Shown here in pieces: positions 8,460-39,389 of a stretch of 41,033 nucleotides of DNA. Positions within the stretch are counted from its first letter, which is position 1; each line of letters starts with the position of its first letter. This DNA comes from a virus, in the IMG/VR virus record IMGVR_UViG_3300032931_000250, positions 1 through 41,033 of that record; one strand, given 5' to 3'. The position numbers and the translations under genes are program-made. The notes below the pieces were generated by a model. It was not told the origin of the DNA. It saw only the letters and a program-made list of their open reading frames with translations, and searched no databases.

Positions 8460-8460
8460 A

Positions 8461-15577: not shown

Positions 15578-15957
15578 TGCTTTACCTCCAAATCGTCTAC
15601 CGTCCAAAAGATCGCTTCGGTCAGCGATGTTGCCACGCGTTCTTCGTGGTGTATTCCGGTCTCGCGCATCTCGTTCACCAAGACATGCATCAGTTCATGG
15701 ACAATCATGCTTTCTGTCTTGCGCTCGGTCCAGCCCTTGAGAGCCGGCACATTGATATAAATAGTGGCTGTCCTATACTTCCAGTCTGCGTAGGTGCGCC
15801 CAATAATCGTCTCGCCCTTCTTAGTGTCCTTGTCTCTGAATACATCCTTGATCAGTTTTTTGTTGGTAGTTAGCACAAAAGTAACATGCCACCAACGCAG
15901 ACCCAGCCGGTAAGTCCATCTCTTGATTGCCTTTTTTAGTTGCTTCTTAGACTTCAT
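15574..15957 (-). CDS. Zincin-like metallopeptidase domain protein
   Basis: This 127-residue protein has the HExxH motif HELMH at residues 87-91 within a helix (SMIVHELMHVLVNEM), and later HHEERVATSLT, which could supply a third ligand. The preceding strand TATIYINVPAL fits the edge strand of minimal zincins such as SprT- or ImmA-like proteins. It overlaps the 43-residue gene's stop as ATGA. It lies within structural genes, so it may be a virion maturation protease or an anti-host peptidase. Substrate is unknown. Confidence 0.7.
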   Translation of the reverse strand: MKSKKQLKKAIKRWTYRLGLRWWHVTFVLTTNKKLIKDVFRDKDTKKGETIIGRTYADWKYRTATIYINVPALKGWTERKTESMIVHELMHVLVNEMRETGIHHEERVATSLTEAIFWTVDDLEVKQ

Positions 15958-20584: not shown

Positions 20585-21083
20585 TCTCCGCCATCCAATC
20601 TATCGCCTGGGCTGGGTCTTTCTTGTGCCACAAACCGATGATGATGTGCTGCTGGGCGCGCTCGGTCGCCTCGATGTCACCCTCTAAAAGGAACTTGAGT
20701 GTGTAGAAATCAGAACGCGCCTCGATCACCGTCAGGCCAGCCTCCTCGAACGACATGCGTAGCCATGGCATGGTGAAGCCGCACAGATATGGGACATCCG
20801 ACATCCCATACAGCGCGGTGTAGGGCGCCAGCCCCATGTTTTCTAGGTTGGCGGCGATCTCCTTGCAGGCCCACTCCAGGGCGGGCACTGTGGCAATGAT
20901 CCGTCCGCCATCCACCAGCTCGTCAGCCAGCTTGCTCAACACCTGCACCACATGCTGGCGCTGGACCGTCTGCAAATGTGTAGCCAAAAGAATGCAGTCG
21001 AACGGCCCCTGGTTGGCGTATTCCACATCATCCTCAAAGAATATCTTGCCTTGCTCAATGTCACCCAATATAAGGACTCTCAT
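20568..21083 (-). CDS. Methyltransferase paralog with degenerate SAM-binding motif
   Basis: This 171-residue protein shares with its neighbour the stretch VDGGRIIATVPALEWACKEI and the following MGL...LYGMSDV region, so they look like tandem paralogs. Its first strand reads LILGDIEQGKIF in place of a GxGxG loop, and the region between motifs is shortened. This may have lost SAM binding and could be a structural or regulatory partner of the intact enzyme. Its stop and start overlap both neighbours, including ATGA with the GT-A gene. Confidence 0.65.
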   Translation of the reverse strand: MRVLILGDIEQGKIFFEDDVEYANQGPFDCILLATHLQTVQRQHVVQVLSKLADELVDGGRIIATVPALEWACKEIAANLENMGLAPYTALYGMSDVPYLCGFTMPWLRMSFEEAGLTVIEARSDFYTLKFLLEGDIEATERAQQHIIIGLWHKKDPAQAIDWMAENDKDS

Positions 21084-22000
21084 GCTAAACCTGCTTTCTC
21101 ATTGGATGACTTCTTGTAGTCCTCGTAGGTGTAGGCTTTGTCTTTCCAGTGTTCGCATACAATCGACGTATCCACCCATGGTTTGATGCCAACAGGAGCA
21201 GCCAGCTCTGAGAAGTAGTGATCTTCCGTGCGCCCATATTCCATGCAGTAAAACGGGAACAGGCGCTGTCCGGTGCGTTCGTTGACCGTTGGCTTAATCA
21301 GTTTCATGTGCAGCCAGTCATTCTCAACGTACACGCTGGGCTTCTGGTCCTGCGGAAAGCCCGTGCTCTTGTAGACATTCTTCTTCAGTATAGGCACGAG
21401 CGATCCGGTCGGACGCTGGAATAGCTGGTAGGCATCCAGGATTTTTTCGTACACGCTGCGATGGATCAACGTGCAGCCCATCCCAACACTGTCCATCTCT
21501 AGCACCGACCCTACGCTGTAGTCCCACAGTGCAGTATAGAAGCCATCTCCGGCGTACTTGTATGCAATCGGGTTATATGGGTAGTTGCCATTGAAGTACA
21601 ACCCGGCGGAAAAATCCTTCTCCAGGCGTAGCAGCTTGCTGATCGTGCCATCCGGTGGAACCGTATCATCATCGATCCAGAATATCCAATCCGCCTTCGA
21701 GCCATGCTCAGACCCACCCAGGAATGAGCCTTTGCTTTCGTTGTCTCCAACGATCGTATCCCGGTTTGCATCGGTCAGATTGTTGCGCTTGCTTTCTTCA
21801 GGTGAGGCGAAGACGCCGCCCACACTATCGGTCTTGTTCACGTCCGGCATGGCCGATTGCCTGGTGATGATCTGGCTCAGATCAACCAGTCCCCGGTCTT
21901 TCTCTCGCAATAAAAATACGATGATGTTCGCCCACCACCTCGGCTTCTGCGCGCCAGAGCAGGCTATGCCAATATCTACCTTAGGAATCACGTCCACCAA
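21080..22000 (-). CDS. GT-A fold glycosyltransferase
   Basis: This 306-residue protein has the nucleotide-sugar binding DxD site as D110-D112 (WIFWIDDDTVPP). It then has SVGMGCTLIHRSVYEKI and a C-terminal EYGRTEDHYFSELAA...VCEHW region matching GT2-like enzymes found in phages and archaea, with acidic E/D pairs in the acceptor site. The first codons are TTG then GTG at 22000/21997, so the exact start is uncertain. It overlaps the Zn-ribbon gene by 20 bases. It opens the glycan cassette and probably transfers a sugar to a virion protein or host surface glycan. Confidence 0.8.
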   Translation of the reverse strand: MVDVIPKVDIGIACSGAQKPRWWANIIVFLLREKDRGLVDLSQIITRQSAMPDVNKTDSVGGVFASPEESKRNNLTDANRDTIVGDNESKGSFLGGSEHGSKADWIFWIDDDTVPPDGTISKLLRLEKDFSAGLYFNGNYPYNPIAYKYAGDGFYTALWDYSVGSVLEMDSVGMGCTLIHRSVYEKILDAYQLFQRPTGSLVPILKKNVYKSTGFPQDQKPSVYVENDWLHMKLIKPTVNERTGQRLFPFYCMEYGRTEDHYFSELAAPVGIKPWVDTSIVCEHWKDKAYTYEDYKKSSNEKAGLA

Positions 22001-22260: not shown

Positions 22261-23400
22261 TTATGATACTGCGGTTAAGAGCGCGTGGCTCTTCTGCTGC
22301 CGCAGGCATAGAGTGAACTCGCCAACCACTTCGGCGTGTTCGTAGTCACCGGTCACTGCCAGTGGTTTCTGCGTGAACGGGTAGTAAGTCATAAACCCAA
22401 CGTTGTTGGGGTCCAAGATCGGGATAGTGCCGGTCGGGCACCACCGATCCATCACCAGGGCAACCTTACCGAAAGGAGTGACGATGTTCTCGATGTCCAT
22501 ACCCACGGTGGTCTCGGTGCGATCCACGCGGAACACTGAGGTACTGGCTGTCCCGCCATAGTCGTACCAGTTTTTGATCTTCTGCTTGTTCTCCGGCGCT
22601 ACAAACGCCATGAGCTGAGCCGAGCCGCCGGCCTTATAGATCGACATAACCGCGGTCTCGAACTGCGATTGTGCCAGGGTCGCGCCGCTCACCAGGTTGG
22701 TCGTAATGAAACCCGGCAACCCTTTCATTGCACGCGGGGTAGAGACGCTGCCTATCTGCCCGGTCTTCACGATCAGGGCGTGCCGCTCGATCAGCCGCAT
22801 CAGCTCCGGCACAGCTTTGTCCGCATGGTAAGCCATGGTGTCGGCAATGCCATACTTCGACATCTGTTGCTCGGTACGAGTGACGTGCACTTCCCGGTGG
22901 AAAATCTGCGACCAGTTCGAGTTAGTGGTCAGTGGGTTGAAGCCCATGGTGGCGCTCTCCGCACCTTCCAAACGCGCCATACCAACCATGGTAATGACGG
23001 TTGAGCTGGTGTGGGTGGCAGCGGTAGATCCAAACTGCCCTCGACTCACGGTCAGGGTGTTTGTGTTAACTGCGCTGACCCACAGGTGCTCAGATTCGAT
23101 CTGGATGACATGCCCCACCTCGTACAGCGATCCGTCTGTAACCACCAGACTTACGCTATCCGAGGTGATGCTGATTGCAGTCATGGTATCGGCAATGGCA
23201 ATGAGGCTGTCCTCTAGCCATTCGACTACGGTGGACTTGCCACCGGTAAAGCGGAACTTGCCTGACGCTCCATCCAACCCGCCCAGTGCGTTGACCAGCG
23301 GTGTATCCGATGGATCAATCAGACTGACGAGATCGGTGATGACACGTACTTGAGCGCCAGTGTCACTATAGGTGGTGGCTGGGTAATCCTGTACAGCCAT
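22261..23400 (-). CDS. Major capsid protein, SU10-like (DUF5309) family
   Basis: This 379-residue protein matches the SU10/DUF5309 capsid pattern. There is a start SDTGAQVRVITDLVSLIDPSDTPL, an inserted beta module around residues 95-145 (VGHVIQIESEHLWVSAV, SRGQFGSTAATHT), then REVHVTRTEQQMSKYGIADTMAYH and LMRLIERHALIVKTG. It ends with the P-domain-like DIENIVTPFGKVALVMDRW. This is an HK97-fold shell protein. AGGAG five bases before ATG fixes the start. It lies right after the scaffold gene, the usual order. Confidence 0.88.
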   Translation of the reverse strand: MAVQDYPATTYSDTGAQVRVITDLVSLIDPSDTPLVNALGGLDGASGKFRFTGGKSTVVEWLEDSLIAIADTMTAISITSDSVSLVVTDGSLYEVGHVIQIESEHLWVSAVNTNTLTVSRGQFGSTAATHTSSTVITMVGMARLEGAESATMGFNPLTTNSNWSQIFHREVHVTRTEQQMSKYGIADTMAYHADKAVPELMRLIERHALIVKTGQIGSVSTPRAMKGLPGFITTNLVSGATLAQSQFETAVMSIYKAGGSAQLMAFVAPENKQKIKNWYDYGGTASTSVFRVDRTETTVGMDIENIVTPFGKVALVMDRWCPTGTIPILDPNNVGFMTYYPFTQKPLAVTGDYEHAEVVGEFTLCLRQQKSHALLTAVS

Positions 23401-23435: not shown

Positions 23436-24137
23436 TTATAAAACGACGCCTCGCTCGCGATACTTCTGCCTGATCCTTAGCTTCTCTTCCTGAGTTGCGT
23501 TATGATCGATAGCAGTACCCATCTCTTTTTTGTATTGCTCTGCGAGGCCGCCATCCACCCGCTGCCCGGCGCTCGGGCCTAAGCTCGGCGTTCTGGCAGT
23601 GGTGGTTTGCTGCGTCTGCCTTTGTGTTTGGTTTTGCGGCGCTGCAACCTGTTGTAAGGCTGCCGCCTTGGCCGCCGATTGTTCTTCGAGAGTTGCCAGA
23701 AACTGCCAGGCGCTTCCGTCCGATTGCACATTCTCGTAGAAGCCATCGCCCGGAACCAGGCTTACTCCGTACTTCTGTTGGATTTCACCGACCTGCTGCT
23801 GAATCATAGGCTGCAATTCTGCTTTCTTGTTGGCTGCCTGTGTCGCTTCTTGCGCCTGCGCCAGCGAAGACGCCAGCTCTGCCGGCACCTCCGCCCCGCT
23901 CTTCACCAGCTTCCCGATCTCGTCCTGGAGTCTGCTCACCTGCTCCGTCAACTCTTTCTGAACACGGCTTGACGCTTTGTCGGTCATGCTCTGCGACTGG
24001 CGGACCGCCTGGTCTATCAATCGCTGCACCTCGTCAAGGGTGACCAATTTCTGCGCTCCAGGAGCTTGCTCCGAGTCAGTACTCTGCCCCGAAGCCTGGC
24101 CGTTGCTCGCTGAACCTGATTGATCGCTCTCGTTCAC
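23436..24137 (-). CDS. Capsid scaffold protein
   Basis: The frame is open to 24170, but GTG at 24137 with GGAGGT five bases upstream is the better start, giving 233 residues. The product is rich in Gln, Ala, Ser and Glu, with an acidic, disordered N-terminus, a central coiled coil (KELTEQVSRLQDEIGKLVK) and a helical basic C-terminus (EEKLRIRQKYRERG) that could bind capsid subunits. Composition and position directly upstream of the capsid gene are typical of scaffolds. No protease motif is visible. Confidence 0.75.
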   Translation of the reverse strand: MNESDQSGSASNGQASGQSTDSEQAPGAQKLVTLDEVQRLIDQAVRQSQSMTDKASSRVQKELTEQVSRLQDEIGKLVKSGAEVPAELASSLAQAQEATQAANKKAELQPMIQQQVGEIQQKYGVSLVPGDGFYENVQSDGSAWQFLATLEEQSAAKAAALQQVAAPQNQTQRQTQQTTTARTPSLGPSAGQRVDGGLAEQYKKEMGTAIDHNATQEEKLRIRQKYRERGVVL

Positions 24138-24154
24138 TTTGACCTCCGTAATAT

Positions 24155-24204
24155 AAAAAAAGGGGCGCAACTTGTAGCGATGTACTCATCGCCAGTCGCG
24201 CCCC
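24155..24204 (-). terminator. Intrinsic terminator between giant-protein gene and scaffold gene
   Basis: On the minus strand GGGGCGC...GCGCCCC forms the outer stem, with an inner GCGATG-AGTA-CATCGC stem, followed directly by seven Ts (plus-strand A run 24155-24161). It stops or reduces transcription coming through the giant gene just before the scaffold start. Confidence 0.75.
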
Positions 24205-24345: not shown

Positions 24346-27300
24346 CTATTTACGAGTGATCGCCGCCAGCCATTCCTCGAAGCTGCCAAACGGCTCCCCC
24401 GCCCTCTCCCATTCCACTTCCAGCCACTGCCGTATCCCCGGCGTGAGCTGCTCATCGAACCCGGCGTACATCGCCAGTTGCATCTGTATCTCCTCCGGCC
24501 AGGTGCTCGGGTCGATCACGCCATACTTCTGTTTGTAGTCCTTCCCCAGCACGCCCTGCGCCACGCTCTCGCTTGATTTCACCCATGGGATGATCTCCGG
24601 GTGCCAGGCCAGGTACTCCCGCTGCCAGTCCCAATAGGCTGCCAGCTCCGGGTGTAGCTTCTTGAAGTAGCTCTTTTCCTTGCTGCTGCTCAGCGTGTAA
24701 TACTCATCCTGGATCGCAAAGATGTTGCCAAATTTCTGCCGCTCTGCCCGGTAAGCATACACCGCCTGCGCGGTCTCCATCGGCAGCCCGGCCAGCTTGT
24801 TCTCTTCGCCGGTCACAAACTCGATCACCTCCGGGTGCTGCGCCATGTACCGGTCTCGCCAGTTGTAATACTGGTCGATCTCCGGGTGCGCTTTCTTTAT
24901 CTGCTCCTGCTGCGCCGGCGTGGCCTGGAAGTATTCATCCAACACCTGCCCAATCCCTGGGAAGCGGCTGGTCATCTGGTCGTGGTATTGCTGGTAGATG
25001 TCCGCCGTCTTCTGCTCCGCCAGTTGCAGTTCCTGCCCCGGTATGTTCTTAAGCGCGCCAGGCGCGTACCCGCCCATGCTCTTCGCCCAGCTTGCCAGCG
25101 TCTCAGGCGAAAGGCTGTCATAGTCGCGCGTCTCTTCGCTCAGGAACTGTTCTAAGAACGTCTGCCCAAGCTGCTCCCTGGTCTGCTTCTTGTACAGGTC
25201 CTCCATCTGTGTGTAGCGCTCCCACACTTCCGAGATCAAGAATTGTTTCATCCGCTCTGCCGGCTTGTCATATAGCGCCAGCCGCGCCTCGTACTCCGGG
25301 TGCTCCAGGAAGAACTCCTTTAACGCTGCACCATCACCCGCCCGGTATGCTTTCCAGGCTGCGCTATATTCGTCCGATAATCCTCTCAGCTTAAGCTCGC
25401 CCGCTGGGAACAGCCCGCCGCTAAACAGTCCCAACACCCCCGCTTTCATCACCTCAGCCGCGCTCGCTCCCTGCTTTGCTGCGTAGATCGCCCCCATCCC
25501 CGGCTCCCGCATCGCCATCTCCAAGCGCACCCGCTCCATTGCCTTGTCGTATGCTGGACCTGTCTTCTCCATCATCGCAATGACCGAATCTCGATAGCTG
25601 ATTACTCCATCCGCCACCATGTTGCTTAGCTGTCGCTCCACGTAGTAATCGCCAAACTGTCCAAACTGGCTCATGCCCGCTTTCTGCCTGGCCTTCGCTT
25701 CTAAGTCCAGGTTGCCAATCCAATCCATGCCTGTCACCGCTGCCAGTCCTTGCAACAACCGGCTGCCAGGTAACACGCTGATCTTCTTGCCCTGGCCCGT
25801 GGCGAGCTGGTAAGGCACGGTCAGGTACATGGCCGGGTTGGTGAAGAGCTGCATATAGTCCAGCACATCCCCGCTGCCTTCCTCCTGGTTGGCCTGCGCC
25901 AGCGCCCGCTCCCAGGTTGCCCCGCTCTGGCTGGCGATCGCTGCCTGCGCCTCGTCTGCTGTGATCTGCCCCTTCCGGCTCCACTCCTGCACGAGCTGCT
26001 CTGCTATGCGCGCGCTGCGCTTCTGTTGGGTCATAAATTGGGTGATCGGCTGGGTGAACTCGCCCATCGGCACCGCCTTGCTTATCGGGTCCACAAACAG
26101 CCCGCCCCCCGCCCACTCCGGCAGCCATCTCACCGGTATCCTGATCCTGCCCCTAAGCCTGCTGGGCATGTTCTTGTCGTCGTCCTGCATGTCCTGCGCC
26201 ATCTGCGCGTAGCGTGCCATCCACGATAACCAGGCTGGTCGATCCATAAAGCGCATACTCCACTCGAACATCGCCCGGCTCGGCCAGAACATATACGGGT
26301 AGATCGACTGAACAACGTTATCAGACCCATAGCGCCTCGAATAGTTGTACAGGCTCATGTCACGCTTGCGCTCGCCCAGCCGGATCGCCGCCAGCTTGGC
26401 CGGTCCGATCTCCTGCTTCACCTTCCCCATCCACTGCCGGTACATCAGGTCGGTGTTGGCGTCGACTCCAGCCATACCCTTGATCCCGCCCTTGCGGCTG
26501 TCTTCCTGCATCCTGCGCTGGATGTAGTCCACCGCTGGCTTGGCATAGGTCTTATATCCATCCTCGCTGAACTGGCTGTCATACTGTGGCGTGGCGCCAT
26601 CCATCGCCCCCAGCGCCATCGGTCCCATGGCCGGCGTGTCGGTGGCTTCCATGCCTGGCGTCCCGCTCATCGGCTGGGTGCGCTTCTCGCCGTTCACCTC
26701 GAACACCCAATTGCCTTGCGGGTCGAAGCCCAGCAAGCGCGCCTTGCCTGCCTTGGTATCGAACTCCTTCAGGTAAGCAAACTTCTCCGGCACATACGCC
26801 ACGAACTTCTTGCCCTCGAACACGAACCCCACCACCTTCCAATCCATCCCGCCCATCTCGATATGGATCGTCCTGGGCAGCCGCATCGCGCTAAAGCTAT
26901 CCGGCGCAAACTTCCCGGCCGCCTTCATCGCTTCTTCGCTTGGCGTCGGCAGCCCCGGCTCTTCGCCCTCTGGAACCGGCGCCGTCATGCTCTGGTACTT
27001 GAGCTTCGGTTGCGACATCTCTCCGGTTGCCAGCTTGCCCTTGCTGCCATAGTTCCGCCTCGCCAGTTTACCGGCGAGATCATTGAACCGTTTATAGCTT
27101 TCATTCGCCGGCAGGCGTATCTGTCCCACGTCACTCCAGTACACAAACTCGCTTGGTACGAGCATCCCCCGCGCGCTCACCCGGTAAGTCATCTCTGTGT
27201 CGATCACCCACGCCCCGTCCTGCTCGATGTAGTGCGTAAAGCTGACTCTCAGCCCCTGCCCATCCTGTCCTGTCTCTATCACCAGCGGCTGGTACTTCCT

Positions 27301-30300
27301 GTTCTCCACCCGCGCGTAAAACCCAGGCTGTAACACCTTCTCCGCCAGCCCCAGCTCATCCAGCATCACCGTCACCTGCTGCGCCGCGTGCGGGAATTGC
27401 GTCTTGGATGGTGCAAGCCTGGCTGGAATAACCGGCCCTGGCTGCATCCTATCTGTCAGATCCGGATACTGAGCCAGAACTTCAGGCGGCACTGGCTGCC
27501 CCTCTGCCAATGCTTTCTCGATCACCTGGATATGGTCGGGTCGTAACATGCCAACCCCCATTTGGTTTCTCTCGCCTTCTACGCCATAGTTCAGGTAATT
27601 CGTTATATGTTCGTCAAAGCGTCCTGCATCATGAGCGCCAATCCATTCGTTCCGCGTCATCTGCCAGGGCTGCACAGTCTCAGGCGCTGGCTGATCGAAT
27701 AATGGCAAAACACCCACCTCCCCGCCCTCCTTTGCCCCGGCCATCTCCATAGCGACTCCGGTCGCCGGCTGCTCGAACCCCGGCATAGTTTCTTGCACGA
27801 TCGCAGCGACCGGTGCAAACGTTTTTGCCTCCGCTCTCTGCGCTGTCCCGCTGAATAGTGGCAGTTCCTCCCCGCTCGTGAACACCAGGAAGGGAGAGGG
27901 CCGGGGTGAGGGTAGTATCTCCGGCACATCACCCGTCATTGCCGCCATCTCCAGTGTCACCGGCGCCCCTGTGTGGGTGATCCCCTTCGCTAGTAGCTCC
28001 CGTATGCCAGGGTATTCGCCGATCACCCGCTCCGGCACTGGCTTGCCCTGCTTCATCGCCTTGAGCACTGCCTTCTGGTGCTGCTCGTGCACGTCTCTCT
28101 GCTTTTGTTTCAGCCCCTCCGTGTAATATTGCTCACGCGTGTACTCCGCCAGCGTCATCTCCCACGTATCCAGCTTGAACATGCGCACATACTGCGCCGA
28201 TTCATCCCCTGTCAGGTCAGCGTGCGGCTTCCAGGATGGCTCCAGTCCAAACTGCGCCCGCAATCTGTCCAGAACTTTCACCATAAATTCTCTGAAGTCG
28301 TTCCAGATCGCCCGTATCTTGGCCGTTGGCGCTTCCCCTGTCGTCCGGTACACCACGTACCCATTCGCCGCCGCTTCCTCATCCCCGTTGAAGTGGCTCA
28401 GGAACTCAACCCGCTCCCCCTCATCCAGGTGATCCAGGTACATGTGCAGCCCCTCGTGCAGCCAGCTATCCAGGTCGCCATGCTCCAGCGCATACACCAT
28501 CTTCTCCGCGCTGTCAAACGCTCCCCGTTTGATTGTTGTTGTCCTCTCTTCAACTTCGTGCACGCTGGGTGGTAGCTGCTTATCTACCCAGCCTTCGTTC
28601 GCATTCAGGTATTCTTTCCTGGCGATCTGCGCCAGGTCTGCCTCTTGCGTGCTCTCGCCAATCCCATGCCGGAAATCGAAACCGGTCAAGGCAATCGGCT
28701 TGCCATCCTTCTCCACTGGCAGCCGCTTGGCCAACATCGCTTCGTGCAGCTTGGTCATCGCCGCTTCTGCTTCTGCCCGTGTGTTGAAAATCGCCGTGAA
28801 CTCATCCCCGTGGTCATGGAACATCGTAATCCCCAGGTCATTTGCCGTTTCTGCGAACGTTCGCAGCAGCATATCTCCGGCCTCGTGCCCATACTTGTTC
28901 ATTGCCGTCAGCCCGGCCAGGTCCACCGCTGCCTTGATCGGCGCCGCATCCACCTCCGCCTGGTAGTGCTCCGTGATCCGCATCTCAGTGACCGGATTAG
29001 TCTTCAACCGCTCGATCTCTGCCCGCATCGCTCGGAACGGCGACCGCCGCCGTTCCCCCACCTCCACCATCCGCTGGTACATGATCCCGCCCCGCTCTGT
29101 GTTGATCGCCTCCAGCGCATCCACGATCTCGCCCGCCCGGATGGTCTTCCTGCCTTGTTTGTATCCCACCTCATATTGAATATCAACATTATCCACGCCC
29201 AGCCTTGCTACACTGGTAGCAATTGTTGCTAATTGTTTTGGATTTATCTTCTCGGCCAACTCTAGTCCAAGAATTAATGTTCCTGGTCTGGTCCATGTAT
29301 TCGCGTTGCTCACCCTAATTGCATGGGTATCATCCAGAAATTTAGCCACTGTCTGGTTATCGTTTAACCACTTAGACATCGGCACTTCTTCGCCTTGAAG
29401 ACCGTAGATATATTCCGCATGGATCATCGTTCGAATAGTCGCGCCCTTACTCAGGTCCAGCATCTCCCCATCTGCAAGCACAAAGCCCGCCTTCTTTAAA
29501 TCATCCGTCACCCCTTGCGCCTTGGCCTGGTTTACTAGATTCTGATCAATAGCTAGTTCTCTTAGCGTGATCGTCAGCGCGCTCAGCTTGATCTCGTTCT
29601 CCCCTTCCGGCAAGTCCCCCGCCTTCGCCTGCCGCGCCCGGTATCCTTCCCAATACTCCTGCGCCGTGCGCCCGTGCCGCCTGGCCCACACCTCCGCCAG
29701 CAGGTCGTCGATCACCAGCGCCCGGTCGGCCACATCCTCTGGCGTCTGGTATTGCTCGATCAGCAGCCTCCGCCGCTCCTCCACTTTGCTCAGGTCGTAC
29801 ATCTTCTCCGGCGCTTGCTCTGCCGGCAGCATCTCCACGCCCTCGTCAGTCACTTCCGCCTGGCTGGTGTTCTTGTCTCGGAACTCCTGCCCGCGTTCCT
29901 CCATGCCGTTCATGGCGTGCTCCACCTCCACCGTGGTCTTGAAGGCTGCCACGTCCGGCCCAATGTGCGGGTTCAGCTCCACCGGCGCAGGCTCTGGCTC
30001 TATCACCCGCTCCGCCATGTGATCCAACACCCGCAGCCAGTTATCCCTCGATCCGGTCAACTGAATCCAGTCCGCCTCATCGAAGTCATTTGTAATCCTG
30101 TGTTCCTGCCATTTCTCGTACACCTCCGCCGCCCGCCCTACATTGCCCTTCTCCAGCAGATCGGTGATCCTATCCAGACCGTACAGGTTGATGATCGACT
30201 CAGGGTTGAACTGATCCATCATCCGAAAGACATAGTTCTTCACGTCATCGATGGTCTGCTCGTAAAGCCCAATCCGGTCTTTGCCCTTGTCGTCGATAAT

Positions 30301-33300
30301 CCTTTGCAAGGCGTTGATCACCGTGTCCTTGCTCAGCTTCTTGCCCATTGCCTCATATTCGTTATACATATCCTGGTACCAGAGTGGGTTTTGGCTTTGC
30401 CTGAAGCCTCCCTTTCCGGTCTCGATCACTACAATGCTCTGGTCGCCTGGCGGTAATAGCTCCAGCATCTGCCCGGCTGTCCAGGCAATATCCCCCGAGA
30501 GCATATCCGCAAATTTCTCCGGCAGGTTCATCCGCTCGCCCAGCGTGTTCCGTGGCCCGTATAGCCCGGCGTTCTTATTCGCCAGATCCGTGGCTTTCTC
30601 CGCTGCGCTGTTCCCCTGCGCCGCGCTGTTCCCCTGCGCCGCTGCTCGCTCCTCCTCCAGGGTTGTTGGTCCACGCCTGCCCTCGTTGATATTCTGCCAG
30701 GCTTCCTCCGGCTTCATCTCCGCGATCTCATCCAGGTACCAGCCTAAGTCCTTCAGCCGGCGCCGCATCTCGCCGGTCATAAATACTGGTTGGGGCTCAA
30801 CGCTTGCGCCCCTCTCCGCTTGCGCCCGGTATTCATCCACCAGCGGTTTCCATTGATCCAGCCAGCTTTGCCGCCCTGTGTTGGTCTGCACGTCATCCAC
30901 TATATCCGCAATCGCTTTCCGCAAGGCGTTCTGCGCTCCCTCGGTATAGTCTTCGATCTTGCCGACTCCAATCAGCACCCGCTCTACTTCTTGATAAATA
31001 TTCGTCTCCAGTCTGCGCAATGCCGGCTGCTCCACGTCCGCCTTGCCTGGCACGTAGCCCTCTTCGCGCAGCTTCTGGAGTGATTCGTCGAAGTATTTCA
31101 GAACCGTTTCCCTGTGCTCTGCCTCGCCAGGCGCCGCCTTTTCGTTGGGGCGCAACGCTTGCGCCCCTTCCCTGTTCACGTCCTCGTACATCTTGGTCGC
31201 CCCATCCAGCCCCGCCCGGATGAACTCCGCTATCGTAGGCAGGTACAGCTTACGTAAGAACTCCGGCCACATCGCATGTTTCTGACTCGGGTGCGTGTTC
31301 CCCACGAACGCCATCACCTCCGGCATCTTCATCAGCTTGGCGTCGCCCCGCTCCCAGGCCCGGAAATCGCTCATCAGTTGCTGCCGGTGTACCGCCAGGT
31401 CGGCCGCGTTCTTCCACCACTCCGCCGCCCCCACCGCCCGCTCCGGCCCGAAGTGCGCGCTCCACATCTCCACAAATGCCGCCCCCATCGTCATGTTGAA
31501 GCGGTTCTCCTTAACCACGTAGGTGTCGTACATCTCGCTCAGCTTCAGTTGCAGATCGTGCCACATATCGTTCTTCGTCTTCTTGTCGGTCAAGCCCTCC
31601 ATCCGTCCGAAGTGCTCCTCGTACAGTCTGGCGCGCTCGATAAAATATTCCTTCCACGATTGGTGCAGATCCAACATCCCCTTGGCAAACTCCTGCGCCT
31701 GCGGGTTCAGCCTGCCCGCATCCGCCTGGTCGCCAAAGCCCAGCGCGCGCAGCACGCCATCATAAGTGCTCTCCACCCAAAGGTTATGCCGCTCAAACTC
31801 TGCCCGCGCCTCCCGCTCCCTGGCCCGCACCAGCGCGTTGTACTCCGCCTTGTCCTGCGCCACGCTCGCCAGCTCATACGTCCGCTCCCACTCGGCAAAG
31901 TGCCGCGTCCATACTTCCTCGGTCTTGAGCTGGATGTCCTTGAATATATCCATCGCTGCTACGAACCCGGTCGAGCGCACCTTCGCCTCCACCTCCGCTC
32001 CCCGCTCTTCCAGGTTGCGCGCCAGCTTCCGGTCCAGCGTGTTATCCAGCATCTCAGCCACGTTGCCGAAGGCCTGGGTTATCGTCTGTCCATCCTTCAG
32101 CTTCTGGTTGATCTGGTCGATCACCGGGTCGATCGCTTCCTTCAAATCCCCCAGCGGTATCTTTAGCTCCGCCGACGCCTCCGCCAGGTAAGCATCCGCC
32201 GAGCTTTGTGCCAGCCTCTGCTCCACTCCCCGGATCATGTCCAGCGCCCCATGGTTCTTGCTCTGCTCCACCGCCGCCAGGATCGCATCCGGCAGCCTGG
32301 CGTCGATCTTTGCCAGCGCCTGCCTCAGCTCGCCCGGCAGCCTGGGGATCAGCCCATCCCGCTGCCATAGCCTGCTCCAGGCCTGCTTGGTCGCCACGTA
32401 CATCACGTTTGCCGACTCGCTGCGCTCGTTCGCCTGCGCCAGCTTCGAGAAGATACCCAGCCGGCTTACCTTAGCCGCCACATCCTGGAACGCCTGCACC
32501 GCATCCTGGGCCGTGGTCGCCTTACGCAGCTCAGTCTCGGATTTAATCCGGGTCACTTCTTCCGCCCCCATCAATCCCTTCTGTTCGAAGGCTTGTTCTA
32601 AAGTCTGCGCCTTGCCCTTGGCTGTGATGTCCAGCCCCACATCCGCCGCGCCCACACCAGCCCGCAGCCGGTGCGGCTCGATCCCAAACTCTTTGAAGAA
32701 GCTGTCGATCTCGCTCTTGCTATAGAAACCGAAGATACCCTCCGCCGCGCGTGCCACCACGTTGCTGATTCCATTGTTGATCAGATACCTGGCGTTGAAG
32801 CCCAGCACGGCCAGGCTTTGAATGCTCTTGAGACCGCTAAAGAAACGGATCGTCTTGCTATCCGGCGTCACCCCGAAGTTCTTTATCATCCACTTATCCA
32901 TGCTGTCCAGCATCCGGTTGTGCAACACCGCCTGGAATGCCTCTGGCGTGCGCGCCCACCAGGTCTCCTTGAACACCTGCACCAGCTCGCTTAGCTTGTC
33001 CGCCGTGAAATCGCCTCCCAATAATCCTTGCTTGCCCTGTTCTGCCGCCTTCGCCTTGATCCTCTGGTACACGTTCAACAGATCCTTGTCGTTGCCCTGC
33101 AAATATTCCAGCGTCTTGCCCTCCCCCTCGCCCAGCACTTCGCTGATGTTCTCCAGGATCGTGCGCGGTCTGTCTGCCAATTCCCACAGCTTGCCCATCT
33201 CATCCGCAATCAGCCCGGCCCCTTCCAGCCCCTGCCTTACGGTGATCATCTCCGGCGTCCCCAGGTGCGCCGCAATCTTCGATGCTTCTGCCGGTGATAG

Positions 33301-35058
33301 TTCTGCCATCGCTTTCACCAGCTTCACCATCTCGTGTGGGTCGTTCTGTGCCTGTTGCAGCAACACGCCTATGTTCTCCTGCGCCATGCCGGCCAGCGCC
33401 CTGTACTTGCTGCCTGGAGTCAGCTCTTTCAACGATTGCCACCACGCCAGTGGGTTGAAGGGCTGCTCTGCAAATGTCAGCGCCGCCCTGGTCACCCTGC
33501 CCTTGGGTGTCAGCTCCTTGATCTCTCCCGTGGCCGTCAGCCCACCCAGCTTGATCTGTAGCTTGCTCATGTCCTGCGGCAATAGCTTGATCTTGTTACC
33601 CTGCGCGTCCAGCTTGAACGCCTCGCCCGATCTTAGCAGGTTGCTATACACCCGCATCGTACCAATCGCCCCCTCACCCACCGCGCTCCTGGCCGCCAGC
33701 TCCAAAGCCGGATCTCCCATCCACTTACTCGCCTGGATCACACCCTTGCGCTTGAAGAGCGGGATCACATTAAATGGGTCGGCTGCGTTCTGCGCCATCA
33801 TGTCGGCAAACTGTCCGCTAAATTGTAGCCTCTGCTGCCATTCTTCCACCACCTGCTGGCTGGTCTTGTTGCCCGCAATCATCTCTGCCAATGCCGCGTC
33901 TAGTATCTCTTGCCCCACCATGTCGATGTTGATTGGCTCTCTCTGCCCCAAGGCCCACACCTCGCCCGGCTTGCTCAGCCTGGCGTCAGATGTCCCGGTC
34001 TTGAGCTGCTCCAACATAAACGCCACCCCGCCCAAAGGCCCCAGCGCCAGCATCCACTTCGGCGCCTTGCCGCTTTGTATCTTGTCGTACAGTATCTCCA
34101 AGGCTGCCGGCGCATTGCCTATGTTCGGCGCTTGCACACCTGGCAGCATCTGCGCCCCGGTCCCGAAGACCACGTCATACCCCAGCTTAGAAGCTTCCGC
34201 CACCTTCGGGTAATTGTCGATCAGCCTGGCCAGCGCTCCATTCTTGAAGTACATATCCTGGATCGCCGCATTGCCAAACCAGCCCGCCATTGTCGCTCCC
34301 TGTTCGAGCTTACCGCTGGCAAAGTTGAGCGCGTTCATCGCCCAGCCTGCAAACCCTTGCAGTTTCTGTACCTGCTCAGGTGTATAACCAGCCGCCACCA
34401 GTCGATCATAATTCTTCGGGTCCATCGCCGCGCTCAATCCAAGTGCCGCAAACTGCGGCCACAGGAACCCGGCTACCGATCCAATCGGACCGCCTGCCGC
34501 AAACCCGCCCACCGCTCCAATCGTGCTCCACGGCAGCGCCTGGATCATACCCGTGAAATACTGGTTGCCCATCACGCTGCTCATTACCTTCTGCCAGGCC
34601 GGCAGGCTCTCGTAGTCCGGCTGTGTCCAATACTCTCCCCCTCCTGGACCGCCGCTTGGTTCTACTCCTGGCTGCTCCGGCCGTGTCATCTCCTCCGACC
34701 AGTCCATCACCGGCGTCTTCCACATGCTCTCGGTCGGTGGCGCGGGGGCGTCCTTGAAGGTCTGTAAGAATGGGTCATCCTCTTTCAGTGGCGCCCATTC
34801 CCACCACGGCTTGCCCCCGTTCTGCTCTTTGAAATACTTGAAGCTCCAGTCTACAAAGTCCGGGTCCCAGCCATATTGATTGCGCCAGTCATTCTCAGGG
34901 TAGATCTGCTGCGCCGTGTGGTGCATCGCGATATTCTCGGGATGCTCCCAATACGTCTTACCCTGTTGGGGCGCAAGGCTTGCGCCCGGTTGCTGGCCAG
35001 GCGGAGTATATTTCTTGCCGGTTGCTTCTTCCCAGGTCGGTACCCATCCAGTTGGCAT
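24346..35058 (-). CDS. Giant 3570-residue polyvalent virion protein with GGDEF-like and zincin-like domains
   Basis: A single open frame covers a quarter of the window; AAGGAG six bases before ATG fixes the start. Residues 170-215 are a Gly/Ala-rich hydrophobic segment. Around residues 2046-2160 is a GGDEF-like domain: D2046 (VDLAGLTAMNKYGHEAGD), N2054 and HGDEF at 2083-2087, then RHGIGE and an EADLAQIARKEY-type C-terminal helix. HEGLH at 2201-2205 is an HExxH zincin motif. The C-terminus has two HPE/WxWR repeats (3374-3412 and 3451-3489). Large multi-domain proteins of this kind (polyvalent proteins) are packed in capsids and injected with the DNA. Placement between portal and scaffold fits an ejected internal protein. 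Catalytic activity of either domain is untested. Confidence 0.8.
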   Translation of the reverse strand: MPTGWVPTWEEATGKKYTPPGQQPGASLAPQQGKTYWEHPENIAMHHTAQQIYPENDWRNQYGWDPDFVDWSFKYFKEQNGGKPWWEWAPLKEDDPFLQTFKDAPAPPTESMWKTPVMDWSEEMTRPEQPGVEPSGGPGGGEYWTQPDYESLPAWQKVMSSVMGNQYFTGMIQALPWSTIGAVGGFAAGGPIGSVAGFLWPQFAALGLSAAMDPKNYDRLVAAGYTPEQVQKLQGFAGWAMNALNFASGKLEQGATMAGWFGNAAIQDMYFKNGALARLIDNYPKVAEASKLGYDVVFGTGAQMLPGVQAPNIGNAPAALEILYDKIQSGKAPKWMLALGPLGGVAFMLEQLKTGTSDARLSKPGEVWALGQREPINIDMVGQEILDAALAEMIAGNKTSQQVVEEWQQRLQFSGQFADMMAQNAADPFNVIPLFKRKGVIQASKWMGDPALELAARSAVGEGAIGTMRVYSNLLRSGEAFKLDAQGNKIKLLPQDMSKLQIKLGGLTATGEIKELTPKGRVTRAALTFAEQPFNPLAWWQSLKELTPGSKYRALAGMAQENIGVLLQQAQNDPHEMVKLVKAMAELSPAEASKIAAHLGTPEMITVRQGLEGAGLIADEMGKLWELADRPRTILENISEVLGEGEGKTLEYLQGNDKDLLNVYQRIKAKAAEQGKQGLLGGDFTADKLSELVQVFKETWWARTPEAFQAVLHNRMLDSMDKWMIKNFGVTPDSKTIRFFSGLKSIQSLAVLGFNARYLINNGISNVVARAAEGIFGFYSKSEIDSFFKEFGIEPHRLRAGVGAADVGLDITAKGKAQTLEQAFEQKGLMGAEEVTRIKSETELRKATTAQDAVQAFQDVAAKVSRLGIFSKLAQANERSESANVMYVATKQAWSRLWQRDGLIPRLPGELRQALAKIDARLPDAILAAVEQSKNHGALDMIRGVEQRLAQSSADAYLAEASAELKIPLGDLKEAIDPVIDQINQKLKDGQTITQAFGNVAEMLDNTLDRKLARNLEERGAEVEAKVRSTGFVAAMDIFKDIQLKTEEVWTRHFAEWERTYELASVAQDKAEYNALVRAREREARAEFERHNLWVESTYDGVLRALGFGDQADAGRLNPQAQEFAKGMLDLHQSWKEYFIERARLYEEHFGRMEGLTDKKTKNDMWHDLQLKLSEMYDTYVVKENRFNMTMGAAFVEMWSAHFGPERAVGAAEWWKNAADLAVHRQQLMSDFRAWERGDAKLMKMPEVMAFVGNTHPSQKHAMWPEFLRKLYLPTIAEFIRAGLDGATKMYEDVNREGAQALRPNEKAAPGEAEHRETVLKYFDESLQKLREEGYVPGKADVEQPALRRLETNIYQEVERVLIGVGKIEDYTEGAQNALRKAIADIVDDVQTNTGRQSWLDQWKPLVDEYRAQAERGASVEPQPVFMTGEMRRRLKDLGWYLDEIAEMKPEEAWQNINEGRRGPTTLEEERAAAQGNSAAQGNSAAEKATDLANKNAGLYGPRNTLGERMNLPEKFADMLSGDIAWTAGQMLELLPPGDQSIVVIETGKGGFRQSQNPLWYQDMYNEYEAMGKKLSKDTVINALQRIIDDKGKDRIGLYEQTIDDVKNYVFRMMDQFNPESIINLYGLDRITDLLEKGNVGRAAEVYEKWQEHRITNDFDEADWIQLTGSRDNWLRVLDHMAERVIEPEPAPVELNPHIGPDVAAFKTTVEVEHAMNGMEERGQEFRDKNTSQAEVTDEGVEMLPAEQAPEKMYDLSKVEERRRLLIEQYQTPEDVADRALVIDDLLAEVWARRHGRTAQEYWEGYRARQAKAGDLPEGENEIKLSALTITLRELAIDQNLVNQAKAQGVTDDLKKAGFVLADGEMLDLSKGATIRTMIHAEYIYGLQGEEVPMSKWLNDNQTVAKFLDDTHAIRVSNANTWTRPGTLILGLELAEKINPKQLATIATSVARLGVDNVDIQYEVGYKQGRKTIRAGEIVDALEAINTERGGIMYQRMVEVGERRRSPFRAMRAEIERLKTNPVTEMRITEHYQAEVDAAPIKAAVDLAGLTAMNKYGHEAGDMLLRTFAETANDLGITMFHDHGDEFTAIFNTRAEAEAAMTKLHEAMLAKRLPVEKDGKPIALTGFDFRHGIGESTQEADLAQIARKEYLNANEGWVDKQLPPSVHEVEERTTTIKRGAFDSAEKMVYALEHGDLDSWLHEGLHMYLDHLDEGERVEFLSHFNGDEEAAANGYVVYRTTGEAPTAKIRAIWNDFREFMVKVLDRLRAQFGLEPSWKPHADLTGDESAQYVRMFKLDTWEMTLAEYTREQYYTEGLKQKQRDVHEQHQKAVLKAMKQGKPVPERVIGEYPGIRELLAKGITHTGAPVTLEMAAMTGDVPEILPSPRPSPFLVFTSGEELPLFSGTAQRAEAKTFAPVAAIVQETMPGFEQPATGVAMEMAGAKEGGEVGVLPLFDQPAPETVQPWQMTRNEWIGAHDAGRFDEHITNYLNYGVEGERNQMGVGMLRPDHIQVIEKALAEGQPVPPEVLAQYPDLTDRMQPGPVIPARLAPSKTQFPHAAQQVTVMLDELGLAEKVLQPGFYARVENRKYQPLVIETGQDGQGLRVSFTHYIEQDGAWVIDTEMTYRVSARGMLVPSEFVYWSDVGQIRLPANESYKRFNDLAGKLARRNYGSKGKLATGEMSQPKLKYQSMTAPVPEGEEPGLPTPSEEAMKAAGKFAPDSFSAMRLPRTIHIEMGGMDWKVVGFVFEGKKFVAYVPEKFAYLKEFDTKAGKARLLGFDPQGNWVFEVNGEKRTQPMSGTPGMEATDTPAMGPMALGAMDGATPQYDSQFSEDGYKTYAKPAVDYIQRRMQEDSRKGGIKGMAGVDANTDLMYRQWMGKVKQEIGPAKLAAIRLGERKRDMSLYNYSRRYGSDNVVQSIYPYMFWPSRAMFEWSMRFMDRPAWLSWMARYAQMAQDMQDDDKNMPSRLRGRIRIPVRWLPEWAGGGLFVDPISKAVPMGEFTQPITQFMTQQKRSARIAEQLVQEWSRKGQITADEAQAAIASQSGATWERALAQANQEEGSGDVLDYMQLFTNPAMYLTVPYQLATGQGKKISVLPGSRLLQGLAAVTGMDWIGNLDLEAKARQKAGMSQFGQFGDYYVERQLSNMVADGVISYRDSVIAMMEKTGPAYDKAMERVRLEMAMREPGMGAIYAAKQGASAAEVMKAGVLGLFSGGLFPAGELKLRGLSDEYSAAWKAYRAGDGAALKEFFLEHPEYEARLALYDKPAERMKQFLISEVWERYTQMEDLYKKQTREQLGQTFLEQFLSEETRDYDSLSPETLASWAKSMGGYAPGALKNIPGQELQLAEQKTADIYQQYHDQMTSRFPGIGQVLDEYFQATPAQQEQIKKAHPEIDQYYNWRDRYMAQHPEVIEFVTGEENKLAGLPMETAQAVYAYRAERQKFGNIFAIQDEYYTLSSSKEKSYFKKLHPELAAYWDWQREYLAWHPEIIPWVKSSESVAQGVLGKDYKQKYGVIDPSTWPEEIQMQLAMYAGFDEQLTPGIRQWLEVEWERAGEPFGSFEEWLAAITRK
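30605..30640 (-). repeat. 18-bp exact tandem duplication in the giant gene
   Basis: GCGCTGTTCCCCTGCGCC occurs twice in a row and encodes the doubled peptide AQGNSA near residue 1475. It lies in a low-complexity linker between domains and keeps the frame. Confidence 0.8.
30792..30812. repeat. Dispersed palindrome, copy in the giant gene (a)
   Basis: GGGGCTCAACGCTTGCGCCCC has one mismatch in the left arm. On the minus strand it encodes RGASVEP in a linker. Confidence 0.7.
31147..31167. repeat. Dispersed palindrome, copy in the giant gene (b)
   Basis: GGGGCGCAA-CGC-TTGCGCCCC has perfect 9-bp arms. On the minus strand it encodes GAQALRP, in a different frame from the other coding copies. Confidence 0.75.
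34969..34987. repeat. Dispersed palindrome, copy in the giant gene (c)
   Basis: GGGCGCAA-GGC-TTGCGCCC has perfect 8-bp arms. On the minus strand it encodes GASLAPQQ near residue 27. Confidence 0.75.
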
Positions 35059-35951: not shown

Positions 35952-36185
35952 TCACTCTCCTTTTACAACCTTCATCAGCGCCTCAAAGCCTTCCGGGTCT
36001 TGCTGCGCGTACATCGCTGCGATCTGTGGCGGCATGGTTGCGATCATCTTCCGCATTTCAAACAGCATCGCTTCCTCCCCCATCATTGCTTCGAACTTAT
36101 TCTTCCACTTCTCGAACTTGGCCAGCCCGCCCGCAAACGCATCCTGAAAGCGCTTGGGTGGCACCGCATCAAGCTTGGGGAACAT
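35952..36185 (-). CDS. Small helical protein, 77 residues
   Basis: A methionine- and lysine-rich, all-helical protein (KFEKWKNKFEAMMGEEAM, RKMIATMPPQIAAMYAQQD). GGAGGAGG precedes the ATG at 36185. It overlaps the portal gene's end by 17 bases and ends three bases before the next gene, so it is part of the head module. Function is unknown; a small head or scaffolding accessory is possible. Confidence 0.6.
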   Translation of the reverse strand: MFPKLDAVPPKRFQDAFAGGLAKFEKWKNKFEAMMGEEAMLFEMRKMIATMPPQIAAMYAQQDPEGFEALMKVVKGE

Positions 36186-37950
36186 TGCTGCCTCCTCCTA
36201 CCCCGGGCATCTGTGGTGGCATTGGCTCGCCCATCCCGCCCTCCATCATCTCAGGCGAGACCAGCTCCCCGGCGCCTGCCTCTTCCATGCCTGGCTCGGT
36301 CATGCCTGGCGCCGCCGCTGCCATGGGTATCGGCCCGCCCTGTTGGGGCGCAACGCTTGCGCCCATCGCTGGCGGCTGCGGTTGCTGTGTAAAGCGCTGC
36401 TGCATGTAGTTCATGAACGCCGCCCACTGCGCCAGCTCAGTCATAATCTCGTCGTCCATCTCTTCGCTGTTCTCGATGTCCAGGAAGTTCTCCCGTATCC
36501 ACTCATTCCCGGCCAGTTGATCCTTCTTCAACATGTCCGCCATCTTCACGTTGCTCAGCTTATCCTGCGCCAGCGCCAGATCAAGCACCACCTCGATCTC
36601 GATGTGGTTGGGTATCTGGCTCGTGTCCACCTCGGCATACACCGATCCGCTGTCCACTGTCACACTCCCACCCTCTTCTTTGAGCAGCGCCAGCCCAACC
36701 TGGATCGCATCCCCCAGCGCCCAGGCTGCTTTACGCTGCAAGATCACCAGCGGCAGCCGGCCCATCTGCCCCAGCAGCGCGTAAGTCCCGTAAGCTGTAC
36801 CCTGTCCCATCGGTGCGCCCAGCGCCTGCCGGTTGATCGTGCTCTCTTCCACCTTCGCACTTGCCAGTTCGATTGCCCGGTAGGCCGCCTCGTCGATCAA
36901 ACCTTTTGCCGACCACGGCTCCAGCCTGCTCCCGGTTGGCTTGCGGATGAATGTCACCGGTCCTTCTGCGTCAATGGTCGGGCCTTCGTCTTCATCATCC
37001 AGCCCCTCGTAGATCATGGCTGGCTTCAATCCAAACTCTGCCACCTTGGTAAACAGGCTGGTGTAACCCAGGTTCTGCCGGTTCCACATCCCGCTCTCTC
37101 GCAGCGCATACAGTATCCCCTCCCGCTGGTCTTCCGGCTTGCTGAATAGCCGGCTGCCCTGCACCAGGTCTCCCACGATCGGGATCACCTTGCCCACCTG
37201 CTGCTGGAGGATCACTGTGTTGCTGCCCATGAAGTACACAAACCGGTTCTCAATATCGTAGAAGTCGCTGATGTCATACTCGTCATAGTCCGTCCGCCCG
37301 GTCTCCATCTCGAATTGCCCCAGCGCTTCCATGGCATACTCACCGAACACTTCCAGCAGCTCTATCTTTTGCAGCTTGTAGTCCTGGTGGAAGGCTTTCA
37401 ACCCCAGCATATCCCAATCCGGGAAGCCCAGCCGAGGATCGCGCACGTCATAGATCAATGGGCAATACTTGGCGATCTCCTGCGCCCGCTCCTTCCAACG
37501 GCCAGTTTGCAGCTCGCCCATCTGCTTGACGCTGTTCACGGCAATGTGCACCTCGTCGAAGATCGTCGCGCTGCGGAGCGCGTCGAAGTGCACCGGATCT
37601 CCCCTTCTCCTGCCGCTCGAACGCAGCGTAGCCTGGCATAGCTTCTCGATTTTGCTGCTCAGCGCCTTGTTGATCTGCCCCTCGATTGCCTTGGGCACCT
37701 TCACCTTCGGGTCGGTCGCGCACAATAGCCGCACGATTCCGTCGATCAGGTTCTTCGGGTCCGGCGACTTCGTGATGTAGATGCTCGGAAACTTGCTCTT
37801 TAGGAATGTCTCGTCCGCCCACCTCAGCTTATACATCGCCTCGTTCGCATCCATCATCAGGTTGCGCGTGCCGTGGATCTCTCGCAGGTGCTCGGCGTAG
37901 CTGCGCGCAATCGCAAATGCTTGCATGTCAAAGTTACGGTCTACTGTCAT
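36169..37950 (-). CDS. Portal protein
   Basis: This 593-residue protein follows terL, the standard place for a portal. It has typical segments: an N-terminal helical region, the wing and stem part with RSATIFDEVHIAVNSVKQM and DVRDPRLGFPDWDMLGL, a beta-rich clip region (DIENRFVYFMGSNTVILQQQ), the long helix EAAYRAIELASAKVEES and the C-terminal crown helices. The tail from residue 520 is Pro/Met/Gly-rich and disordered, and includes an in-frame palindrome copy (GASVAPQQ). The portal forms the dodecameric DNA channel. GGAGGAACCT before ATG fixes the start. Confidence 0.85.
   Translation of the reverse strand: MTVDRNFDMQAFAIARSYAEHLREIHGTRNLMMDANEAMYKLRWADETFLKSKFPSIYITKSPDPKNLIDGIVRLLCATDPKVKVPKAIEGQINKALSSKIEKLCQATLRSSGRRRGDPVHFDALRSATIFDEVHIAVNSVKQMGELQTGRWKERAQEIAKYCPLIYDVRDPRLGFPDWDMLGLKAFHQDYKLQKIELLEVFGEYAMEALGQFEMETGRTDYDEYDISDFYDIENRFVYFMGSNTVILQQQVGKVIPIVGDLVQGSRLFSKPEDQREGILYALRESGMWNRQNLGYTSLFTKVAEFGLKPAMIYEGLDDEDEGPTIDAEGPVTFIRKPTGSRLEPWSAKGLIDEAAYRAIELASAKVEESTINRQALGAPMGQGTAYGTYALLGQMGRLPLVILQRKAAWALGDAIQVGLALLKEEGGSVTVDSGSVYAEVDTSQIPNHIEIEVVLDLALAQDKLSNVKMADMLKKDQLAGNEWIRENFLDIENSEEMDDEIMTELAQWAAFMNYMQQRFTQQPQPPAMGASVAPQQGGPIPMAAAAPGMTEPGMEEAGAGELVSPEMMEGGMGEPMPPQMPGVGGGSNVPQA
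36346..36364. repeat. Dispersed palindrome, copy in the portal gene
   Basis: GGGCGCAA-CGC-TTGCGCCC has perfect 8-bp arms. On the minus strand it encodes GASVAPQQ in the disordered portal tail, the same peptide and frame as the copy at 34969. Confidence 0.75.
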
Positions 37951-39389
37951 AGGTTCCTCCGCAATCGCTTCCAGTCATCCATATCCTGCCGCCTCTTCCG
38001 CTCGTCTTTCTTCTTCACTGCCACCCCATAGTTGCTCAGCCCATACCGGAACGCATCATAGGCGTGGTCTTCCAGGTCGGTGTCCACGTCTTCCACCTTC
38101 ACCGGGTCATACACCAGCGTGCCGAGCTGCTCGATCAGGTTCACGCAGGTAGAGAAGATCATCACTCCCGGCTTGCCATCCGGCATCAGCGCCAGGGCAT
38201 TGTCCACCCGCCGCTTGCCCGGTATGCGTGCGTTGTCCGCCTTCTCCAGAAACACCCCCTTCTTGGCGTATTCCTGCACCGCCGTGTACCGCTGCCCCTC
38301 GAAGTTCTTCTCTTCCCAATAGCTGGCCGGGTCTGCCAGGCTGCGCGCAATCTTCTCGCTCGGGTCGGTCAGGTCCACGATCCGCTGCGCCTGTTGCAGA
38401 TCTGTCAGCCCCGCCGCATACGCCTCCCGGTACACGTATATCCTGTTCGTGTCCGGGTCTTTCGCAAACCACAGGCAGCACCACGGCTTTGCGCTGCCCC
38501 AATCCATCGCCCGCCATAGCAGGTACTTGCTCGGTATCTCGAAGGGCAGGCACACATGCGTGTTGTACACAAACTGGAATGCCATCCCCTCGAACACATC
38601 CCAATTGCACTCCCGCCAGGCCTCCGCCAGCGCCCCGTGCAGACCTTCCAGAAAGCGGTGGTAGCCTGCGTTCAGGTATGGGTTGCCCTTGTAGCTGGCC
38701 TCGATGTAGCGCGCAAACTTCCCAATCGTCCCCTCCCTGGTCGGGATCACAAACTTGGCCTTGAACCACTTTAATCCAATCCCATCCGCGTTGGTAGTGT
38801 AGTAAGTCCGTGGCCGCCAGTCCTTGCGGCTGGTTCGCACGCTGCCTTTGATCTTGTCGATCTTCGTCTCGCTTAGTTGTGTGGCTTCTTCCACCGTTGC
38901 CCCATCGTAGTCCAGCCCCAGGTACTTCTCGATGTCCGTCTCGTTGCGATATCCACCCAGTATGATCCGGCTGCCGTTGCTAAAGTTTACTCGCCTGTTG
39001 CTGGGCACGTACTCGTGCGGGATGTGTGCAAACACCCTGCCCACCAGGTCTTCCAGGCTTTCGGCTGCGCTGATCTGCACCTTGCGCAAGAACAGCCACT
39101 TGATCCCCGGCGCCCGCTGCAAATCATCAAGTCCCACCTGCGCCAGGCACGCATGGCTCTTGCCCGGTCCCCGTGTCCCGCCCACCCCAATGTCTTCCGG
39201 TCCATCCTCCGCATCCGCCTCCCGAGCTGCTCTATGCAGTGGCATCATTTGCAGCAGCGGGAAGTATTTAGCCTTAAGGAAATTCCTGGTCTGGTCTTCT
39301 GGCAGCCCCGCATCAGCGCAGGCCAGGATCATCTCCCTCTCCGCCTGGTTCAATCTGTGCTTGCTCTGTACCCTGGTCTCGCTTAGCAT
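37947..39389 (-). CDS. terL: Terminase large subunit
   Basis: This 480-residue packaging motor has an N-terminal ATPase with Walker A GGTRGPGKS (residues 70-78) and Walker B around ATVEEA (164-169). It then has a C-terminal RNase-H-fold nuclease with D296 (RAMDWGSAKPW) and DHAYDAF (441-447). It cuts concatemers and pumps DNA into the prohead through the portal. It overlaps the small subunit by 77 bases and the portal gene by 4. Confidence 0.93.
   Translation of the reverse strand: MLSETRVQSKHRLNQAEREMILACADAGLPEDQTRNFLKAKYFPLLQMMPLHRAAREADAEDGPEDIGVGGTRGPGKSHACLAQVGLDDLQRAPGIKWLFLRKVQISAAESLEDLVGRVFAHIPHEYVPSNRRVNFSNGSRIILGGYRNETDIEKYLGLDYDGATVEEATQLSETKIDKIKGSVRTSRKDWRPRTYYTTNADGIGLKWFKAKFVIPTREGTIGKFARYIEASYKGNPYLNAGYHRFLEGLHGALAEAWRECNWDVFEGMAFQFVYNTHVCLPFEIPSKYLLWRAMDWGSAKPWCCLWFAKDPDTNRIYVYREAYAAGLTDLQQAQRIVDLTDPSEKIARSLADPASYWEEKNFEGQRYTAVQEYAKKGVFLEKADNARIPGKRRVDNALALMPDGKPGVMIFSTCVNLIEQLGTLVYDPVKVEDVDTDLEDHAYDAFRYGLSNYGVAVKKKDERKRRQDMDDWKRLRRNL

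Follow-up and report, generated by a model that had tools for sequence, protein, structure and literature searches.

A divergent GGDEF domain in the cargo region of a giant phage protein

Introduction

Phages destroy or soak up immune nucleotides. Synthesis of a nucleotide by an injected enzyme would, if true, represent a different phage strategy, and the question raised by the locus described here is whether it encodes such an enzyme. The window, that is, the whole stretch of DNA analyzed, is a 41,033-base virus record (IMGVR_UViG_3300032931_000250), in which an earlier note had pointed out a GGDEF-like domain within a phage giant protein. An injected synthase had already been proposed in 2017 on the basis of a small number of examples (Iyer et al., PMC5512222), and the literature searched contained no test of this proposal. 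In that report, GGDEF domains in polyvalent proteins were regarded as not very widespread and were suggested to interfere with the response of the host or to act against competing elements, and no alignment of a phage GGDEF branch was found in its text (PMC5512222). The arrangement, of which the earlier note knew no well-studied phage example, is thus not without precedent, GGDEF domains of polyvalent phage proteins having been described in 2017. Neither is a GGDEF domain new to phages as such, because YuA gp44 (PMC10333796) and Bacillus phage G gp350 are already annotated as phage GGDEF proteins.

Results

The giant protein is encoded on the minus strand by a single open reading frame of 3570 aa (24346..35058) with no internal stops, as the earlier note had read it, and every motif quoted there was found in place. 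The gene lies among virion structure genes, all on the same strand, in the order terminase large subunit (37947..39389; PF04466, phrog_5653), probable portal protein (36169..37950), giant protein, probable scaffold protein (23436..24170) and SU10-type major capsid protein (22261..23400; PF17236, E 1e-60), which is identical to the order in MW202608.1. The portal protein, for which a family search gave no matches, was assigned by position only, with reference to the equal gene order of MW202608.1, and the scaffold protein by position and composition only. Within the giant protein, whose features are all given on the minus strand, a conserved N-terminal part (residues 1 to ~1310; 31129..35058) matches L003, L004, L007, L009 and L023 by blastp, and a conserved C-terminal part (residues 2802-3570; 24349..26655), the structure model of which was poor (pLDDT 66), closes the chain. 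The region between them (residues ~1311-2801; 26656..31128) is variable, with a length of 126-4932 aa in relatives of the protein. These relatives comprise MW202608.1 (an uncultured podovirus from Manatee Spring), 32 IMG/VR loci and two contigs of Chloroflexota metagenome-assembled genomes (MAGs). They make up a scaffold protein family with the middle serving as a cargo slot, which is newly described here. The cargo region also contains a DUF6908 domain (residues 2571-2638; 27145..27348; PF21849, E 5.6e-10, above the cut-off); the same stretch is matched by the GGDEF-bearing polyvalent proteins L070 and L097. With a GGDEF domain, a zincin HEGLH site, DUF6908, conserved ends and a variable cargo slot in one polypeptide encoded among virion genes, the giant protein is, as judged from its sequence, a polyvalent protein.

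Residues ~2006-2178 of the giant protein (28525..29043) form a GGDEF domain, according to PF00990, a leave-one-out profile, AlphaFold2 and Foldseek. The domain noticed earlier is real, and its true extent is slightly longer than the span first drawn; it contains D2046, N2054, YGHEAGD (2056-2062), HGDEF (2083-2087), FRHGIGE (2129-2135) and QEADLAQIARKEY (up to 2150). The isolated slice scored 21.0-21.6 bits (E 2e-4 to 3e-4) against PF00990, the curated cut-off of which is 23.8, and a PF00990 match at E <= 0.01 was obtained for all 74 of 74 family members, the best at 5e-19. Phmmer matched a T. maritima diguanylate cyclase (4urq) at E 2.6e-3. A leave-one-out profile of 73 phage relatives, from which the window sequence was excluded, gave the giant protein 94.2 bits (E 9e-28); when the domain was shuffled 2000 times, the highest score was 9.1 bits, and no other six-frame open reading frame of the window exceeded 5.5 bits. 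The AlphaFold2 model, for which the 74-sequence alignment A7 served as input, had a mean pLDDT of 93.3, a pTM of 0.84 and GGDEF topology, with the motif on a hairpin (model residues 94-98) between strands 2 and 3. The 50 PDB matches that Foldseek listed were without exception GGDEF/diguanylate-cyclase structures (best DgcB, 6ttr, E 2.4e-8), so the structure prediction proposed earlier as a check yielded the GGDEF fold. Because the model was built on GGDEF relatives, it partly depends on the sequence result; the A7 profile by itself matched DgcR, DosC and PleD, among others, with E values of about 1e-15 to 1e-19.

The residues of the active site were compared with those of DgcR, in which D174, E217 and E218 bind Mg, N182 and D191 contact guanine, K289 and R293 contact the gamma-phosphate, and K179 lies over the alpha-phosphate (PMC8041772). 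The metal- and guanine-binding residues are in place in the window copy, as the earlier note had claimed: the Asp and the (D/E)E pair of the metal site are D2046 (28921..28923; D174 of DgcR), D2085 and E2086, and the guanine-binding Asn and Asp are N2054 (28897..28899; N182 of DgcR) and D2062. The proposed conservation of D2046, N2054, D2085 and E2086 was borne out, each being invariant in 75/75 homologues, as are G2061 and G2084; the position of D2062 is D in 66 of the 75, N in 6 and T in 3. K2148 (28615..28617), which a profile alignment places at K289 of DgcR, is likewise conserved (71/75), and a loss of this phosphate Lys from the window copy was rejected on the basis of that alignment. 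The signature motif of the window copy is HGDEF (28798..28812), the cyclase consensus being (G/A/S)G(D/E)EF and the first position in the relatives being S (64), G (10) or Q (1). In VCA0965 of Vibrio cholerae, an AGDEF protein, an engineered HGDEF mutant was active (PMC3974145), so that the His occurring naturally in the window copy need not by itself abolish activity.

Several other residues are lost from the window copy. T2051 occupies the position of K179 of DgcR (Lys in 69/75 homologues) and L2151 that of R293 (Arg in 62/75), W2157 stands where 65/75 have Arg, and A2048 where 67/75 have Asp. The residue after N2054, an Asp in 74/75 relatives, is deleted, so that the N-D-x-x-G-H loop is one residue shorter. 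The RxxD inhibitory site (I-site) is absent from the window copy and was present at the canonical place in only 1 of 72 sequences. Since N2054 and D2062 are kept, GTP is the predicted substrate, and binding of GTP by the window copy appears likely. Cyclase activity of this copy is somewhat less likely than not, because it no longer has the Lys at T2051, the Arg at L2151 or the Asp that follows N2054.

Directly behind the GGDEF domain lies a zincin-like metallopeptidase domain (residues ~2180-2262; 28273..28521), recognized by HEGLH (residues 2201-2205; 28444..28458), a distal Glu and a GEAPTAKIR block, and matching the zincin of L049 by blastp (E 2e-8). Within the scaffold family, GGDEF domains occupy the cargo slot of the window protein, G003, G009/G010, G023, L040 and L049 (an Anaerolineales contig). 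The GGDEF domain precedes the zincin in the window and follows it in G010, L049, L040 and G023, as expected for shuffled cargo; no HExxH was found in G003, and G010 and L049 also gave an ART-PolyVal match below the cut-off. The Lys at the T2051 position is absent in five of these six GGDEF lineages and kept in the sixth, G023, an SGDEF relative. L040, the nearest relative of the window copy in its own protein family, has QGDEF, TQ for GH and VNG for VND. As a separate observation, the G023 locus L054 is an 86.7-kb viral contig on which a single 7021-aa frame combines the ends of the window protein with GGDEF and zincin. Residues 1763-1917 of the giant protein (29308-29772) match residues 1994-2164 of L009, the block standing behind GGDEF in L009 and before it in the window protein; judging from the sequence match, this is another shuffled cargo domain.

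Viral contigs, genome contigs and phage records all gave no matches when scanned for close relatives with the window domain alone, because the window copy is divergent. A distant scan of viral contigs seeded with G023 and YuA gp44 found 91 contigs encoding a GGDEF domain of this branch, of which 80 were kept. Almost every copy is part of a long frame, typically of 1500-4000 aa, and only 3 of the 80 are stand-alone YuA-like genes; the carriers are polyvalent proteins mostly unrelated to the window protein outside GGDEF. In full-length comparison, about 40 branch copies were matched by the window domain at E < 1e-5, most of them sharing nothing else with it. The typical motif is [YF]H[IVL]SGDEF, with Ser usual for the first Gly. 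This excess of Ser is partly due to the search pattern, and the 26 sequences found only by another pattern had 13 Ser and 7 Gly at this position. In the tree, the phage branch was separated from a set of nine cellular or cellular-type GGDEFs at an SH-aLRT of only 88, and we consider it likely from these sequences that the phage GGDEFs are one branch. The window copy grouped with L040, a grouping that may be false, as it joins two long branches. Seven PHROG families with unannotated function (e.g., phrog_5594) match 25 to 73 of 74 branch members.

Diguanylate cyclases release two PPi per product. A pyrophosphatase domain (PF18823) was found in the same frame as GGDEF in 11 of 50 GGDEF phage records, L063 and L064 being such pyrophosphatase-linked copies. 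The gap between the two domains was <=60 aa in 7 of the 11, upstream in some and downstream in others, as compared with about 5% expected under uniform placement, a figure uncorrected for sequence relatedness. Iyer et al. proposed that pyrophosphatase-type domains clear PPi from nucleotidyl transfer (PMC5512222). A pyrophosphatase would remove the PPi that a cyclase releases, which lends indirect support to real catalysis in the family, and the link suggests, as the best indirect sign available, that family members are active. The window protein itself gave no pyrophosphatase match, and neither did the 27 records that contain its relatives.

Discussion

The fold, the conserved metal, guanine and Lys residues, the gene position, the cargo architecture and the zincin were all established by computation. 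The reading that they support best, which we regard as evenly balanced between true and false, is that the window GGDEF may be an injected module for cyclic-dinucleotide synthesis, carried with other cargo domains by a polyvalent protein. Judging from N4, P1 and what is published on polyvalent proteins, the giant protein would most likely be built into the virion and enter the cell with the DNA. The adjoining zincin might then cut the chain and so release or activate the GGDEF domain, which could dimerize and bind Mg-GTP. In the family at large, the presumed product, c-di-GMP, would be made early in infection, and made without product inhibition because the RxxD site is missing, thereby shifting the surface or motility behavior of the host or stabilizing lysogeny.

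The most serious alternative, somewhat less probable than an injected synthase, is a degenerate GGDEF that has lost synthesis and, through the binding of GTP or of a cyclic dinucleotide, would serve as a sensor or sponge, or else would be a structural spacer in the giant protein. The changes in the window copy (T2051, the deleted Asp, L2151, W2157, A2048 and H2083), the similar alterations in L040 (QGDEF, TQ and VNG) and the long branches of both are consistent with such decay. However, the metal and guanine residues are all kept, DLAG is present in the T. maritima cyclase 4urq as well, and the I-site, the usual c-di-GMP binder of inactive GGDEFs, is absent. We think it improbable that the domain makes another product, such as cGAMP or a linear dinucleotide, against nucleotide-based defence or guard systems of the host. 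N or T replaces the D2062 residue in 9/75 relatives, at a position that we take to be the selectivity position of GacA, residue 347. The mixed product of Hypr GGDEFs is partly due to that position (PMC6456294). Two relatives match mCpol weakly (E 0.0025), and Panoptes is known for mCpol decoy nucleotides (PMC12657218); yet the window copy and 66/75 relatives keep the guanine-reading N and D, and no defence or nucleotide-receptor gene was recognized beside the window GGDEF. For the decoy role against CBASS that had been suggested earlier, or an inhibitor role, the window GGDEF showed no sequence signs. A chance resemblance with no GGDEF fold can practically be dismissed, for although the window copy alone scores below the Pfam curated cut-off, the 94 bits of the leave-one-out profile against 9 for the best shuffle, the confident GGDEF model and the Foldseek matches refute it.

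A wider proposal drawn from the branch sequences is rather unlikely in full: many uncultured phages might inject a cyclic-dinucleotide synthase free of feedback, often coupled to a pyrophosphatase that drives the reaction forward, presetting the host second messenger before phage expression, and the sub-branch of Chloroflexota phages, which lacks the catalytic Lys, may have another product or may instead hold nucleotides. The injected-synthase reading of the window copy can be placed beside known GGDEF proteins. Bacterial diguanylate cyclases (PF00990; PleD, DgcR, DgcB, T. maritima 4urg) share the fold, the metal and guanine residues and the Lys of the last helix, whereas in the window copy the first motif Gly is replaced, RxxD is missing, the N-D loop is short, a Lys and an Arg are lost, and no sensor domain was recognized. 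As described in the 2017 report, the GGDEF of Acetonema longum WP_004096050.1 likewise occurs together with a zincin and numerous other domains in a giant (pro)phage protein that is presumed to be injected. By that description, the present branch differs in covering 91 contigs, mostly SGDEF, nearly all without I-site and often beside a pyrophosphatase. YuA gp44 and other GGDEFs of Yuavirus and Vojvodinavirus fall in the same tree branch and share an RVSGDEF motif and the C-terminal R..RG.RPP block, but YuA gp44 is a stand-alone 156-aa gene adjoining an anti-restriction gene, unlike the window GGDEF within its giant protein. Biofilm formation is increased in lysogens of related Bordetella phages, the cause being unproven (PMC8471281). 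Bacillus phage G gp350 is also a phage-encoded GGDEF, but a canonical one with an I-site in a separate 254-aa protein, and it groups with cellular sequences in the tree. New here are how large the branch is and what signature it has, its almost complete lack of I-sites, and the pyrophosphatase neighborhood. The alignment defines the phage branch and makes clear active-site predictions, for which good test proteins are G023 and the copies of L063 or L064 that are linked to a pyrophosphatase, the window copy being a natural Lys-to-Thr variant.

As to the host, the window phage is probably a temperate tailed phage of Chloroflexota, the host being assigned from relatives only. The stretch at 2789-9021 encodes an integrase, a D12 adenine methylase, a ParA-type ATPase and an M23 peptidase; the integrase and ParA-type genes point to a temperate phage, perhaps with a plasmid-like stage. 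In the Chloroflexota MAGs with relatives, GGDEF matches number 22 and 12 (the latter including the phage copy itself), and PilZ receptor domains are present, so that c-di-GMP probably functions as a signal in hosts of this kind. Elsewhere in the window, a CDNQCPWC cysteine cluster marks a radical SAM-like protein (56-901; no Pfam match at 0.001), and another HExxH metallopeptidase-like motif, MIVHELMHVLVNE, is carried by a small protein at 15574-15957. A block of genes resembling surface modification (18766-22000) separates the capsid gene from those of the tail side and contains a glycosyltransferase-like gene (21080-22000), two methyltransferase-like genes (19976-21083) and a multi-spanning membrane protein (18766-20001).
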